Assembly (NCBI RefSeq): GCF_013141915.1
Contig: NZ_SROX01000001.1
Location: forward strand, 434,001-498,000
Direction: 5' to 3'
Length of the DNA: 64,000 nt
DNA from: Cupriavidus necator
GTDB lineage: Bacteria; Pseudomonadota; Gammaproteobacteria; Burkholderiales; Burkholderiaceae
The notes beneath the pieces were generated by a model that did not search any database, was not told the DNA's origin, and was given only the letters and a program-made list of their open reading frames with translations. A program made the translations under genes and the position numbers. Shown piece by piece: positions 10,975 to 14,276 of the stretch. Numbering within the stretch: the stretch's first letter is position 1; every line of letters begins with the position of its first letter.

Positions 10975-11100
10975 GGATGGCGCCGGGAAAGGATTCTCTT
11001 CAGGCTAGCAGGCAGTGGACGGCGAGTGAAGAACGGTTCATTTGAATGCGCTTCTGCTTGTCGGATATCCCCGCTATCGCTCCGATAGATATCTTTTTCC

Positions 11101-11129
11101 TTGACTATCTACCTACCAGTAGATAGCAT
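11101..11129 (+). promoter_or_regulatory. Module A promoter P1 overlapped by operator O1
   Basis: TTGACT (11101-11106) and TAGCAT (11124-11129) are spaced 17 bases apart. Within this promoter CTATCTAC (11105-11112) and GTAGATAG (11119-11126) form a perfect 8-bp inverted repeat. The same arrangement recurs in module B. The site is the expected binding place for the linked TetR regulators. An IR and T-run at 11074-11100 precede it. Confidence 0.7.
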
Positions 11130-11196
11130 TCACTCCATGGCACCGCTGCACTGTCCAGCGACAGCGAAAGGCACCAAGATGTGGCGATTCCATGGC

Positions 11197-11218
11197 ATGA
11201 CCTAGACGGTCATTTTTT
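11197..11218 (+). terminator. Terminator-like hairpin in the module A leader
   Basis: ATGACC (11197-11202) pairs with GGTCAT (11208-11213), and a run of six T ends at 11218. It lies about 80 bases after the promoter and 110 bases before the repeat-protein gene. A different sequence with the same form sits at the equivalent place in module B. Premature termination (attenuation or a small RNA) is inferred. Confidence 0.45.
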
Positions 11219-11233
11219 CAGGCCCGCAAATCT

Positions 11234-11247
11234 ATCTACTAGTAGAT
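11234..11247. promoter_or_regulatory. Operator-like palindrome O2, module A
   Basis: ATCTACTAGTAGAT is a perfect 14-bp palindrome carrying the same TCTAC/GTAGA half-sites as O1. It is embedded in a larger inverted repeat, TTTTCAGGC (11215-11223) with GCCTGAAAA (11252-11260), so it may act as DNA operator, RNA structure, or both. Confidence 0.6.
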
Positions 11248-11327
11248 GCGAGCCTGAAAAGCGACCCCCGAATAGCTACTGATACCGAATTGACGCGATC
11301 CGAACCATCGCACCCCAGGAGCCCATC

Positions 11328-11750
11328 ATGACCAAGACCACCAAGACCCTGATCACCGCCGCCACCCTTGCCGCCGCGCTCGTCGGCGGTGTGGCGCAGG
11401 CGGCCAGCGTGCAGGACAACGCCGGGGACAAGTACGGCTACAGCTATCGCGTCGGCAAGGCCGATGCCTTTACCGACGGTGCCCGTACCGGCAAGTTCGA
11501 CCCGTTCACGGAAGGCGCCCGCGTTGGCAAGTTCGACCCGTTCACGGAAGGCGCCCGCGTTGGCAAGTTCGACCCGTTCACCGAAGGCGCACGCGTCGGC
11601 AAGACCGACCCTTACACCGACGGCTTCCGCACCGTGGCTGGCCTGGACCGCACCGGCATCTCCGCCGAGCCGGCCCGCAGCTTCGACCCGTACACGGACG
11701 GCGCGCGCGTCGGCAAGGCCGACCCCTATACCGACGGCGCCCTCGCCTGA
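11328..11750 (+). CDS. Secreted 12-residue-repeat protein, module A
   Basis: A 140-residue protein starts with a Sec signal peptide ending near AQAA (residue 25). The mature part is built from repeats of the form GKxDPFTEGARV: one degenerate copy, three nearly exact copies, then DPYTDGFRT, SFDPYTDGARV and KADPYTDGALA. The DNA carries exact 36-base tandem copies. Each repeat brings an Asp-Pro-aromatic-Thr-acid-Gly turn with one Lys and one Arg, which could bind metal or anions, but no known family was recognised. It is first in a unit with the 33-residue membrane peptide at 11823 and faces operator-bound control from TetR1. A paralogue lies at 12974-13480. Confidence 0.8.
   Translation: MTKTTKTLITAATLAAALVGGVAQAASVQDNAGDKYGYSYRVGKADAFTDGARTGKFDPFTEGARVGKFDPFTEGARVGKFDPFTEGARVGKTDPYTDGFRTVAGLDRTGISAEPARSFDPYTDGARVGKADPYTDGALA
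11490..11597 (+). repeat. 36-bp coding tandem repeat (three units)
   Basis: Units at 11490-11525 and 11526-11561 are identical, and the unit at 11562-11597 differs at a few third positions. Each encodes GKFDPFTEGARV. Near-identity suggests recent copy-number change by slippage or recombination. Confidence 0.9.
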
Positions 11751-11789
11751 TTGCTGCCGGCGCTGGCCGGCGGCCCACACTTTACGATG

Positions 11790-11804
11790 GCGGCCGGTGG
11801 CCGC
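11790..11804 (+). promoter_or_regulatory. Intercistronic hairpin before the module A membrane peptide
   Basis: GCGGCC and GGCCGC flank GGT, 18 bases before the start codon at 11823. A longer hairpin (13518-13537) occupies the same place in module B. It may stabilise or tune the downstream cistron. Confidence 0.35.
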
Positions 11805-11822
11805 TGTCCGATGGAGTCCATC

Positions 11823-11924
11823 ATGAGTTTGCGTGACAGCATCCTGTTGCTTGGCGGATGGCTGGTACTCTGCGTGACGAGTGGCTCGATGATCACCTTC
11901 GCCGCGCAGGTCCTGCCTGGCTAA
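11823..11924 (+). CDS. 33-residue membrane peptide, module A
   Basis: ATG at 11823 opens a 33-codon frame encoding MSLRDSILLLGGWLVLCVTS and 13 more residues, ending in QVLPG. A GGAG ribosome site lies 8 bases upstream. Residues about 6-28 are a single transmembrane helix. A paralogous peptide of identical length at 13555 shares RD, LGGW, LC, SGS, IT, AQ and LP. Conservation of peptide length and sequence while DNA differs shows it is translated. Function is unknown; partnership with the repeat protein is inferred from co-duplication. Confidence 0.8.
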   Translation: MSLRDSILLLGGWLVLCVTSGSMITFAAQVLPG

Positions 11925-11941
11925 CCCCATGTTGTGCACAG

Positions 11942-11981
11942 TGCCCCGAGGCTAGGGAATTACCCCAGCCTCGGGGCATTT
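11942..11981 (+). terminator. Terminator between module A membrane peptide and tetR1
   Basis: TGCCCCGAGGCT (11942-11953) and AGCCTCGGGGCA (11967-11978) form a 12-bp stem followed by TTTC. It separates the repeat-protein unit from tetR1, which has its own promoter. Confidence 0.75.
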
Positions 11982-11985
11982 CAAC

Positions 11986-12014
11986 TTGAGCGTCTATCTT
12001 CGCGTAGATAAACT
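11986..12014 (+). promoter_or_regulatory. tetR1 promoter with operator O3
   Basis: TTGAGC (11986-11991) and TAAACT (12009-12014) are 17 bases apart. Between them TATCTTC and GTAGATA (about 11994-12009) form an inverted repeat of the O1/O2 type around GC. The predicted start site, about 7 bases after the -10, coincides with the ATG at 12021, so the message may be leaderless. Autoregulation is inferred. Confidence 0.6.
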
Positions 12015-12020
12015 GATCGC

Positions 12021-12587
12021 ATGAAGACTCAATCCGTACGCGAGCAGTTGCTCGAGCACACCCTGATCCTGATCCGCCGGCGCGGCTTCAATGGCTTCAG
12101 CTACCGCGACCTGGCGGAGCTGGTCGGCGTGAAGACCTCCAGCATCCACTATTACTTTCCGACCAAGGAAGACCTAGTCCAGGAAGCGGTGAAGGAATAC
12201 AGCGCCCGCCTGGCCGAGCGCATCAATGCCATCGACACCAGCTTGCCGGTCACCGAGCAGGCGGCTATCTACCTGGCGCCATTCCGCGCCAGCTGCGGCT
12301 CGGACCAGATCTGCCTGTGCGGCATGCTGTCGACCGAGACGCTGTGCCTGCCCGAGACCGTGCACAAGATGCTGAAGGGCTTCTACCTGCTGAACGAGCA
12401 ATGGCTGGCCGGGCTGCTGGAGCGCGCCCAGCCACACCGCAGCACGCCGTTCCCGGTGCCGCCGGCGCGGCTGGCCCAAGTGGTGTTCGGCTCGCTGCAG
12501 AGCGGGCTGATTGCGGCACGGCTGTTCGGCACGTCGGACCGTGTCGAGGCCGCTGCCGATACGCTGATGGCCGCCGTAGCCGGTTAA
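12021..12587 (+). CDS. TetR-family regulator TetR1, module A
   Basis: A 188-residue TetR-family repressor. The N-terminal DNA-binding domain contains FSYRDLAELVGVKTSSIHYYF, the helix-turn-helix with its usual YYF end at residue 46. The ligand domain has a cysteine cluster (Cys92, Cys98, Cys100, Cys109) recalling electrophile-sensing regulators such as NemR, although that role is inference. It probably binds the TATCTAC/GTAGATA palindromes at O1, O2 and its own promoter. TetR2 at 13689 shares an almost identical DNA-binding domain, so the two likely recognise each other's sites. A terminator follows at 12620. Confidence 0.9.
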   Translation: MKTQSVREQLLEHTLILIRRRGFNGFSYRDLAELVGVKTSSIHYYFPTKEDLVQEAVKEYSARLAERINAIDTSLPVTEQAAIYLAPFRASCGSDQICLCGMLSTETLCLPETVHKMLKGFYLLNEQWLAGLLERAQPHRSTPFPVPPARLAQVVFGSLQSGLIAARLFGTSDRVEAAADTLMAAVAG

Positions 12588-12619
12588 ATTTGCGCGCGCT
12601 ATCCGTAGCGCGTCGGAAG

Positions 12620-12654
12620 CCGTCATGGGGTGCAAGCCGCATGACGGTTTTTTT
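12620..12654 (+). terminator. Terminator after tetR1
   Basis: CCGTCATG (12620-12627) pairs with CATGACGG (12640-12647), followed by TTTTTTT. It ends module A. The remaining bases up to 12727 show nothing clear. Confidence 0.9.
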
Positions 12655-12754
12655 ATGTACGCATGGTTAGCGGGCGCAGTCTTGAAAACCATTTGAAAAC
12701 AACGACTTGACGCGTCATCGAGGATCGCTATCGGGACCATAGAAAAGTTTTTCC

Positions 12755-12783
12755 TTGACTGTCTACCTAGTAGTAGATAGTAT
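12755..12783 (+). promoter_or_regulatory. Module B promoter P1 overlapped by operator O1'
   Basis: TTGACT (12755-12760) and TAGTAT (12778-12783) are 17 bases apart. CTGTCTAC (12759-12766) and GTAGATAG (12773-12780) form the overlapping operator, with one mismatch in the left arm. Sequence from GCTATCG through CCTTGACT upstream also matches module A. Confidence 0.7.
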
Positions 12784-12851
12784 TCAGTCCATGGAAGCGC
12801 AGCACCGTCAGCAACCAGCAACACCAGGCGGCACTGGCGATCCCATTGCAC

Positions 12852-12873
12852 GACCGGCAGCGGTCATTTTTTT
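12852..12873 (+). terminator. Terminator-like hairpin in the module B leader
   Basis: GACCG (12852-12856) and CGGTC (12861-12865) form a short GC stem with a GCAG loop, then A and seven T. Its position matches the leader terminator of module A while the stem sequence differs. Confidence 0.45.
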
Positions 12874-12882
12874 GAGACCGTC

Positions 12883-12902
12883 CATCTATCTACTGATAGA
12901 TG
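12883..12902. promoter_or_regulatory. Operator-like palindrome O2', module B
   Basis: CATCTATC (12883-12890) and GATAGATG (12895-12902) form a perfect 8-bp inverted repeat around TACT. It is the counterpart of O2 and again lies inside a wider inverted repeat (TTTGA with TCAAA, CCG with CGG). Confidence 0.6.
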
Positions 12903-12973
12903 CGGAATCAAAGAAGAGGCTGCTCGAACAACCGAATTGACGCGATACCGAACCATCGCCCCAGGAGCCCATC

Positions 12974-13480
12974 ATGACCAAGACCACCAAGACCCTGATC
13001 ACCGCCGCCACCCTTGCCGCCGCGCTTGTCGGCGGTGTGGCGCAGGCGGCCAGCGTGCAGGACAACGCCGGGGACAAGTACGGCTACAGCTATCGCGTCG
13101 GCAAGGCCGATGCCTTTACCGACGGTGCCCGCACCGGGAAGTTCGACACGTTCACGGAAGGCGCGCGCAGCGGCAAGTTCGACCCCTTCACCGAAGGCGC
13201 ACGTGTCGGCAAGATTGACCCGTACACCGACGGCGCGCGCACGGTCGCGGCCACGGTGCCGGCCGACAGCTACGGCTACAACTACCGCAGCGGCCAGGCC
13301 GACCCGTTCACCGACGGCGCCCGCGTTGGCAAGTTCGACCCGTACACCGATGGGGCCCGCACGGTAGCCGGCCTGGACCGCAGCGGCGTATCGGCCGAGC
13401 CGGCCCGCAGCTTCGACCCGTACACGGACGGTGCTCGCGTGGGCAAGGCCGACCCCTATACCGACGGCGCCATCGCCTGA
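12974..13480 (+). CDS. Secreted 12-residue-repeat protein, module B
   Basis: A 168-residue paralogue of the protein at 11328. The signal peptide is identical, and the first 30 or so mature residues match almost exactly. It has about seven repeats of the form GKxDP(F/Y)T(D/E)GAR, and differs from module A by a 28-residue insertion beginning VAATVPADSYGYNYRSGQAD, which itself repeats the N-terminal YGYxYRxGxAD motif. The C-terminal linker VAGLDRSGVSAEPARSFDPY is shared. Its repeats are less identical than those of module A, so the module A array looks more recently homogenised. It is followed by a 33-residue membrane peptide and tetR2 without a clear terminator. Confidence 0.8.
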   Translation: MTKTTKTLITAATLAAALVGGVAQAASVQDNAGDKYGYSYRVGKADAFTDGARTGKFDTFTEGARSGKFDPFTEGARVGKIDPYTDGARTVAATVPADSYGYNYRSGQADPFTDGARVGKFDPYTDGARTVAGLDRSGVSAEPARSFDPYTDGARVGKADPYTDGAIA

Positions 13481-13517
13481 CAGCCGGCCGGCCACGCGCC
13501 GGCCATCGAAAACCACA

Positions 13518-13537
13518 GGGCCGCCACGGTGCGGCCC
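13518..13537 (+). promoter_or_regulatory. Intercistronic hairpin before the module B membrane peptide
   Basis: GGGCCGC and GCGGCCC form a 7-bp stem 17 bases before the ATG at 13555. No T-run follows closely, so it is more likely a processing or attenuating structure than a full terminator. Confidence 0.35.
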
Positions 13538-13554
13538 CGCTTCAGGAGTTGATC

Positions 13555-13656
13555 ATGCGTTGGCGTGACACTGCGCTGATCCTGGGCGGATGGGTAGGCC
13601 TTTGCCTTGCAAGCGGGTCGCTCATCACGCTGATCGCACAAACGCTGCCGGCCTGA
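13555..13656 (+). CDS. 33-residue membrane peptide, module B
   Basis: ATG at 13555 follows AGGAG by 7 bases and encodes 33 residues, MRWRDTALILGGWVGLCLAS then a tail ending QTLPA. One transmembrane helix covers about residues 6-28. Compared with the module A peptide, it has the same length and 16 or more identical positions, concentrated in LGGW, LC, SGS, IT, AQ and LP. tetR2 starts 32 bases later, so both are likely on one message. Confidence 0.8.
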   Translation: MRWRDTALILGGWVGLCLASGSLITLIAQTLPA

Positions 13657-13688
13657 ATGGCGCGGCGGCAAGCCGAGGAGTGGATGCC

Positions 13689-14276
13689 ATGAACACCCCA
13701 ACCGTACGCGAGCAACTGGTCGAACACGCGCTGGTGCTGATACGCCGCAGGGGATTCAATGGCTTCAGCTACCGCGACCTGGCCGAACTGGTCGGCGTCA
13801 AGACCTCGAGCATCCATTACTACTTCCCATCCAAGGACGACCTGGTGCTCGAAGCGGTGCGCGAATACAGCGCGCGCAAGCGGGCACGGCTGCAGGCCAT
13901 CGATACCACCCTGCCGTGCGCCGAGCAGGCGCGGCGATACCTCGAGCCGCTGCGCGGCGGCGCCTGCGCCGACCAGGCCTGCGTGGTGGGCATGTTGTCC
14001 GCCGACGTGCTGGCCATGCCTGAGGCCGTGCGCGTCGCGATGCAGGACTTCACCCGCCTTAACGAGCAGTGGCTGGCGCGCCTGCTTGAACAGGCAGCCG
14101 CGCGGGGCGCGGCGCCGTTTCCGCTGCCGCCGCAACAGTTGGCACAGGTGATATTCGGCGCGCTGCAGAATGGGTTGACCAGTGCGCGGCTGTTCGGTAC
14201 GTGGGAACGAGTCGATGCCGCGGCGGCGCTGCTGGCCAGCGCCATGCCGGTAGAGGCGGCGCTAGCCGAAGCGTGA
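13689..14276 (+). CDS. TetR-family regulator TetR2, module B
   Basis: A 195-residue TetR-family protein. Residues 19-50 are nearly identical to TetR1 (RRRGFNGFSYRDLAELVGV then KTSSIHYYFPSKDD), so the DNA site should be shared. The ligand domain diverges more but keeps Cys98 and has Cys77 and Cys93. The start is backed by GAGGAG. Unlike tetR1 it has no promoter or operator of its own and appears to be co-transcribed with the repeat protein and membrane peptide. Its last bases overlap the end of the convergent hydrolase gene. Confidence 0.9.
   Translation: MNTPTVREQLVEHALVLIRRRGFNGFSYRDLAELVGVKTSSIHYYFPSKDDLVLEAVREYSARKRARLQAIDTTLPCAEQARRYLEPLRGGACADQACVVGMLSADVLAMPEAVRVAMQDFTRLNEQWLARLLEQAAARGAAPFPLPPQQLAQVIFGALQNGLTSARLFGTWERVDAAAALLASAMPVEAALAEA

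Follow-up and report, generated by a model that had tools for sequence, protein, structure and literature searches.

A 64-kb stretch of the Cupriavidus necator genome (contig NZ_SROX01000001.1 of assembly GCF_013141915.1, positions 434,001 to 498,000; hereafter the window) carries two adjacent modules of the same composition. In each module a promoter with an operator (O1) is followed by a leader terminator, a second operator (O2), and genes for a predicted secreted repeat protein, a 33-residue membrane peptide and a TetR repressor. An original prediction, made from the DNA sequence, had described two neighboring copies sharing gene order, repeats, operators and leader hairpins, and our scans for open reading frames (ORFs), operators and terminators bore this out, with both modules at the predicted positions and the ORFs, gene order and repeats as described. 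Between positions 11050 and 14300 there are three promoter-like sites (0.6 expected) and seven terminator-like sites (1.9 expected). A search against Rfam returned three weak matches, all to eukaryotic RNAs and each below its gathering score. The features, in window coordinates, are:

11101..11129, plus strand: module 1 promoter (-35 TTGACT, 17-bp spacer, -10 TAGCAT)
11109..11126, no strand: operator O1 of module 1, spanning most of the spacer and extending into the -10
11197..11218, plus strand: leader intrinsic terminator H1 of module 1 (stem 11197-11213, T-run 11213-11218)
11208..11266, plus strand: candidate alternative hairpin H2 of module 1, in which 11208-11223 (terminator 3' arm and T-run) pairs with 11252-11266 and the loop holds O2
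11232..11249, no strand: operator O2 of module 1, 19 bp downstream from where the T-run begins
11328..11750, plus strand: rep1, secreted CopQ-like repeat protein, 140 amino acids
11823..11924, plus strand: membrane peptide 1, 33 residues
11942..11978, plus strand: strong inverted repeat between peptide 1 and tetR1, with 16-nt arms; probable terminator
11994..12011, no strand: operator O3 ahead of tetR1, beginning 27 bp before its ATG
12021..12587, plus strand: tetR1, NemR-like TetR repressor, 188 amino acids, with conserved Cys98
12755..12783, plus strand: module 2 promoter (TTGACT, 17-bp spacer, TAGTAT)
12763..12780, no strand: operator O1 of module 2, a match to the palindrome
12852..12873, plus strand: leader terminator H1 of module 2 (stem 12852-12865, T-run 12867-12873)
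12886..12903, no strand: operator O2 of module 2, 19 bp downstream from where the T-run begins
12974..13480, plus strand: rep2, secreted CopQ-like repeat protein, 168 amino acids
13555..13656, plus strand: membrane peptide 2, 33 residues
13689..14276, plus strand: tetR2, TetR repressor

The operator consensus, CTATCTACNNGTAGATAG, is an 18-bp palindrome. With up to three mismatches allowed, the window holds five sites where 0.01 would be expected, and the whole genome (6.97 Mb) holds these same five and no others outside the modules. A reversed control pattern also gave five matches genome-wide, so we count the clustering of the sites, and not their total, as evidence that they are operators. 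O2 lies 123 bp downstream of O1 in both modules. O3 is present only before tetR1, behind the inverted repeat, and tetR2 has no operator near its start; as had been proposed, tetR1 is therefore probably controlled separately and tetR2 expressed as part of its operon.

The promoter is conserved along with the operators. In 69 leaders with an O1/O2 pair, the -35 place reads TTGACT in 44 and TTGCTT in 18, and the -10 place reads TAGTAT, TAATAT or TAGCAT in 54. The exact O1-promoter pattern, which misses the TTGCTT form, occurs in 22 stretches of genome_contigs; 21 carry the title Cupriavidus and the other is 'Burkholderiaceae bacterium 16'. Four of its 27 matches are cut by the end of their stretch; all of the other 23 have O2 and a T-run 18-20 nt ahead of it, and 22 have a repeat ORF of at least three units. 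Downstream of the -10, close to the likely transcription start, lies a CCATGG box (11135-11140 and 12789-12794) that belongs to the consensus of the 69 leaders. A leader peptide starting from this box was rejected on reading the frame, which ends in the terminator loop in module 1 and crosses O2 in module 2.

TetR relatives (E<=1e-20) were found in 38 of the 60 genomes searched, including all 36 of Cupriavidus, the source genome counted. From the window and 60 fetched loci we collected 74 TetRs at E 1e-25 and left out one distant paralog (L119); one of the remaining 73 (L102) comes from another family. A repeat gene lies upstream of 70 of the 73 (not L071, L093 or L102), and 70 have at least two operators (the exceptions being L071, L102 and L089, the last of them truncated at a contig end). 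The module pair is conserved across the metal-tolerant genus Cupriavidus. In the genome from another family (L102/L160), we saw a related TetR (53%) and partial operators and found no repeat gene. The original prediction expected repeat protein, peptide and TetR to occur together, which holds when one starts from the TetR. For the wide repeat family the refuting case that it had named applies to the letter: the source genome has 16 further places matching the repeat protein, and no close TetR or peptide was found beside them. Twelve of these places (L017-L021, L023-L028, L031) carry an ORF with at least two DPYTDG-type units.

A peptide gene stands beside 63 of the 73 module TetRs and is absent at L064, L071, L078, L096-L098, L101-L103 and L113, as it is from the CH34 locus of mmtQ type described below. 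Comparison of 162 close, non-independent pairs of 33-residue forms gives 357, 245 and 810 differences at codon positions 1, 2 and 3, a pattern of coding constraint. Sequence comparison thus indicates that the membrane peptide is real but dispensable to the module. Its cysteine is not invariant, being replaced by Ala or Ser in some species. At locus L093 the repeat gene is missing and the operators, peptide and tetR are retained; the peptide may act alone there.

Both regulators exceed the TetR_N gathering score (42.1 and 44 bits, cut-off 24), and their C-termini resemble TetR_C_13, whose gathering score only tetR2 passes. The acrylate regulator AcuR was rejected as an identity (NF051457, 36.1 and 34.4 bits against a cut-off of 247). 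A profile of the TetRs matches NemR (4YZE, E 6.5e-15), and in this match, with a chain numbering offset that we infer to be 2, Cys98 of TetR1 aligns with the sensing Cys106 of NemR. Cys98 is invariant in seven aligned TetRs, present in all 73 module TetRs, and conserved in the aligned ohr-linked TetRs discussed below. The window TetRs look NemR-like and resemble cysteine-based sensors. With NemR, the electrophile and hypochlorite switch of nemA and gloA in E. coli, they share the TetR fold, the position of the sensing cysteine and, probably, autoregulation. They differ in target, as the window operators precede a repeat protein and a peptide rather than nemA or gloA, and the NemR operator differs from that of the window.

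Outside the genus, related regulators frequently precede ohr. A TetR match at E<=1e-30 is present in 172 of 299 family genomes, Cupriavidus included. Among the matches listed, an Ohr gene follows on the same strand at a distance of 154-480 bp in 47 of 68 non-genus rows, and four have no Ohr row; the downstream gene passes the Ohr model TIGR03561. Of the fetched non-genus loci, 9 of 14 (one, L160, from another family) have ohr downstream. In three annotated records from Burkholderia and Paraburkholderia, a TetR gene is followed by genes for an organic hydroperoxide resistance protein and an alpha/beta hydrolase. The palindromic operators of the window recur there, set before an organic hydroperoxide reductase and a hydrolase instead of a CopQ-like protein and a peptide. 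In B. pyrrocinia, the TetR of this cluster shares 46% and 50% identity with the two window TetRs. OhrR, a MarR-family cysteine repressor, places ohr under organic-peroxide control; it parallels the cysteine control proposed for the window TetRs but belongs to another regulator family, and we know of no CopQ-like target for it. The source genome has two ohr matches, at least one on another contig. The order TetR-Ohr-hydrolase is that of BCAS0084-BCAS0085-BCAS0086 in B. cenocepacia J2315, for which the sections of PMC2830190 available to us report induction of 5.9-, 49.3- and 96.6-fold by H2O2 and 3.8-, 20.3- and 11.3-fold by NaOCl. Another B. cenocepacia replicon carries the TetR, operators and hydrolase. 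At two loci that lack a neighboring ohr, the genes behind the operators encode an exported hydrolase sharing 54.5% identity with the ohr-linked enzyme (L154) and, by inspection, an apparent aldehyde dehydrogenase (L153). Excerpts of two further papers name other Burkholderia ohr genes (PMC2559838) and describe how H2O2 and Cu induce an ohr/osmC gene in Cupriavidus (PMC5663122).

Pfam and NCBIfam gave no name to the repeat protein or the peptide; matches to PT-VENN, cytidyltransferase and FliH were weak, below cut-offs, and were rejected. By sequence, the repeat proteins are CopQ-like. They share with the CopQ-like group (CopQ, CzcJ, MmrQ, MmmQ, MmtQ, MmsQ, PrsQ1/PrsQ2) a signal-peptide-like N-terminus, which in rep1 and rep2 reads by inspection as basic-hydrophobic-AxA, and DxxTDG units. 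The strict motif published for CzcJ, MmrQ and CopQ is RDXXTDG in 3-4 repeats (PMC2864759, consulted in part here and below). Rep1 and rep2 contain no strict unit, and seven and eight units of the relaxed form D..(T/S)(D/E)G; we therefore call them CopQ-like and not CopQ. A further difference from the published group is their association with a TetR gene, a peptide gene, operators and a leader terminator. The original prediction knew of no described system of this kind, which was too strong, since the CopQ-like group has been in print since at least 2010.

C. metallidurans CH34 has relatives of the repeat protein. A repeat query matched the CH34 chromid with E down to 9.4e-38 and a 233,720-bp replicon, which from its size we take to be pMOL30, at three places (E 7.3e-12, 3.9e-8 and 0.002); two of these three, read through, carry RDVFTDG repeats, the published CopQ/CzcJ/MmrQ motif. 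One pair of CH34 loci is near-identical (99.2% over 758 bp), consistent with mmsQ/mmsQ1, and for a locus at 770.8 kb the gene-number spacing agrees with mmtQ. From this pair and this spacing, two CH34 relatives found in modules of this kind can very probably be identified as mmtQ and mmsQ. Their proteins have one and no strict RDXXTDG units, respectively, and were grouped by the authors of PMC2864759 as having 'similar domains'. The same paper describes mmtQ and mmsQ as metal-induced, with high induction of mmtQ by Cd, Hg and Pb, moderate induction by Zn and none by Cu or Ni (data not shown there). The mmsQ1-type copy (L164, 2071-2828; CH34 chromid, ~2.35 Mb) has near-identical operators and repeat gene; a TetR search of the CH34 genome found none there, and the copy is presumably controlled in trans.

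The 68 module repeat proteins have 4-15 units each, and their mature forms are 12% Asp. A model of the repeat protein built from 20 sequences has low confidence throughout (mean predicted local distance difference test score, 49.6), with a helix at residues 2-26.

We consider it fairly probable that a thiol-stress repressor controls these CopQ-like envelope operons and its own synthesis, acting at the promoter and, less surely, at the leader terminator. This reading is based on the confinement of the operators to the locus, the linkage of TetR to repeat gene at 70 of 73 loci, the placement of O1 over the promoter, the NemR-aligned cysteine, the kinship to ohr-linked regulators and the published induction. 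A TetR dimer would bind the 18-bp palindromes at the rep promoter (O1), past the terminator (O2) and at the tetR1 promoter (O3). Oxidants, electrophiles or thiol-binding metals would modify Cys98 and release the repressor, and the operon would then make an exported, probably disordered repeat protein and a one-pass membrane peptide, which may protect the envelope. Extra repressor made from the operon would reset the switch. The suggestion of a stress-, metal- or electrophile-responsive envelope system with a cysteine-bearing TetR is thus supported in part, by the NemR alignment, the ohr-linked orthologs, the H2O2- and NaOCl-responsive cluster, and the metal induction of mmtQ and mmsQ.

Several observations weigh against this reading. 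Lys175, the proposed partner of Cys106 in NemR, aligns with Arg167, which is invariant in seven aligned TetRs; by a simple string test the RLF motif at this place is present in 59 of the 73 module TetRs, making it less conserved than the cysteine. The Lys175 bond itself, in the portions seen of PMC8748444, found no support in a NemR-based sensor. No adjacent Ohr was found for 17 of the 68 non-genus rows among the matches listed, and BCAS0084-BCAS0086 were matched by gene order, not by J2315 sequence. The assignment of mmtQ and mmsQ likewise rests on the near-identical pair and gene-number spacing, not on annotation, as the CH34 record has no gene table there. Finally, the mature repeat proteins have nearly no Cys and little His (past residue 25, Cys in 1 of 68, probably the L065 protein, which has a masked stretch, and His in 14 of 68), which makes strong soft-metal chelation unlikely.

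The signal itself could be of another kind. Many TetRs bind ligands, and the window TetRs might sense a small organic molecule such as a lipid-peroxide product, an aldehyde or an aromatic, with metals inducing indirectly; the apparent aldehyde dehydrogenase and the exported hydrolase behind operators would suit such a ligand. CssR of Corynebacterium glutamicum, a TetR autorepressor released by heavy metals, points in the same direction: as far as the parts of PMC8176726 we consulted go, its operator differs, its target is an ABC exporter, and it answers metals without cysteine oxidation, its cysteines being reported as not redox-active, so that a bound ligand could be the signal here as well. 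Ligand sensing nevertheless seems to us somewhat unlikely, given that a cysteine stands at the NemR sensing position in all 73 module TetRs and in the aligned ohr-linked ones, and that the matching B. cenocepacia cluster answers H2O2 and NaOCl (PMC2830190). A metal-resistance determinant, with the repeat protein as periplasmic metal buffer and the TetR as direct metal sensor, would account for the metal induction of CopQ-like genes and the 12% Asp, but the scarcity of Cys and His argues against it, as do the orthologous TetRs that precede ohr outside the genus and the published description of mmtQ, mmsQ and mmsQ1 as unlinked to metal-resistance loci (PMC2864759). We regard it as unlikely.

The part of the thiol-stress reading that concerns the leader depends on the terminator. 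One of the leader hairpins, by our scan and by comparison of the 69 leaders, is an intrinsic terminator. A T-run of at least four starts 18-21 nt before O2 in all 69 leaders (at least six T in 67). In 66 of them the 28 nt before the T-run fold below -3 kcal/mol, although the hairpin abutting the T-run is not always the best fold; 63 leaders have a stem of four or more pairs (three G-C) that ends 0-2 nt before the T-run, against 8% with the upstream bases shuffled, and the terminator stems include 13 distinct 5' arms. Because the spacing from O1 to O2 varies (87-146 bp), the fixed distance is that from terminator to O2.

Single leaders fold no better than shuffles (z -0.20 and -0.76), and H1 and H2 therefore rest on the comparison of leaders, which for the pairing test were reduced from 69 to 39 clusters, with energies averaged and not analyzed as pair-by-pair covariation. 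The terminator arms (H1) scored -7.14 with their own partner against -5.31 with permuted partners, and the terminator 3' arm and T-run with the stretch behind O2 (H2) scored -16.75 against -13.28; none of 20000 permutations reached the own-partner value in either case. In single clusters the own partner beat more than 90% of others in only 6 of 39 (H1) and 14 of 39 (H2). Against the five nearest relatives, 3 (H1) and 12 (H2) of 5000 reached the own-partner effect. Pairing controls A, B and D were flat, and control C showed an own-partner effect too (8 of 5000 permuted, 53 of 5000 with near relatives). The stretch from T-run to O2 alone added little (1100 of 20000).

A more novel but somewhat doubtful reading is a repressor-dependent attenuator, in which O2-bound TetR would stall polymerase on the T-run and bring termination to completion, stress would free both promoter and terminator together, and H2 would fix read-through. 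The length of polymerase suits an O2 about one polymerase beyond the short-stemmed leader terminator. At ohr-type loci a run of 3-5 T precedes the next operator, behind tetR, by 17-20 nt in 12 of 13 cases, or 11 of 13 on a safer count, as the L151 run does not follow a terminator hairpin; L155 and L167-L169 are close kin. On this reading, Cupriavidus rep operons and the tetR-ohr loci of Burkholderia and Paraburkholderia would have a terminator-19-bp-operator unit in common. O2 may instead have no part in termination, the terminator ending a short leader RNA of the first promoter and O2 being either a remnant or a site that forms a loop with O1. Repressor systems often involve looping between operators, no conserved promoter hexamers were seen in the O2 consensus of the leader alignment, and the single leaders fold as their shuffles do; these points make a role-free O2 quite possible, if still short of probable. 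Such an O2 would not, however, explain why the distance from T-run to O2 is held in all 69 leaders while O1-O2 spacing varies, or why a like spacing recurs behind tetR at ohr-type loci.

The two modules were described as a tandem duplication with divergence, whose copies may answer different signals. Two copies are indeed present, but a recent tandem origin does not stand: the window TetRs share 64% identity and belong to different clades, so the duplication, judged from the sequences, is old. A tree of 93 TetRs unites the 73 module TetRs (99/99) and places next to them 17 from elsewhere in the family, a side with weak support (85/7); long branches make its deep branching order less certain. 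TetR2 clusters with the TetR of the CH34 mmsQ-type locus (96/84), and tetR1 belongs to a separate 15-row clade (100/100). Over their first 55 codons, rep1 and rep2 share 98.2% identity, whereas peptide and tetR DNA reach 65-77%, which makes gene conversion in the repeat genes likely.

CopQ-like proteins and their metal induction are already published, as is the response of the Burkholderia cluster, in the parts of PMC2864759 and PMC2830190 that we consulted. No joining of a TetR to CopQ-like genes was found in the open-licence literature, including the accessible portions of PMC2864759 and PMC7380067, where a report may have gone undetected. The repeat motif strings were not found in that literature, the mmsQ/mmtQ tags and their neighbors appeared there in PMC2864759 alone, and among its papers on roadblocks with terminator, repressor or attenuation we found no leader attenuator of CopQ-like operons. 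The TetR link, operators, peptide and candidate attenuator thus appear to be new for CopQ-like genes, as judged from the papers searched. The 2010 CH34 genome paper, in the part available to us, recognized only MerR, ArsR and Fur as one-component metal-regulator families.

In Cupriavidus, CopQ-like proteins are strongly induced by metals yet have had no explanation; a regulator, operators and a chemistry can now be proposed for two of them. The work also connects CopQ-like operons with the way Burkholderia responds to peroxide and hypochlorite, and it suggests a simple coupling between a repressor and an intrinsic terminator that can be tested. It suggests that these CopQ-like proteins may answer thiol damage rather than any one metal.

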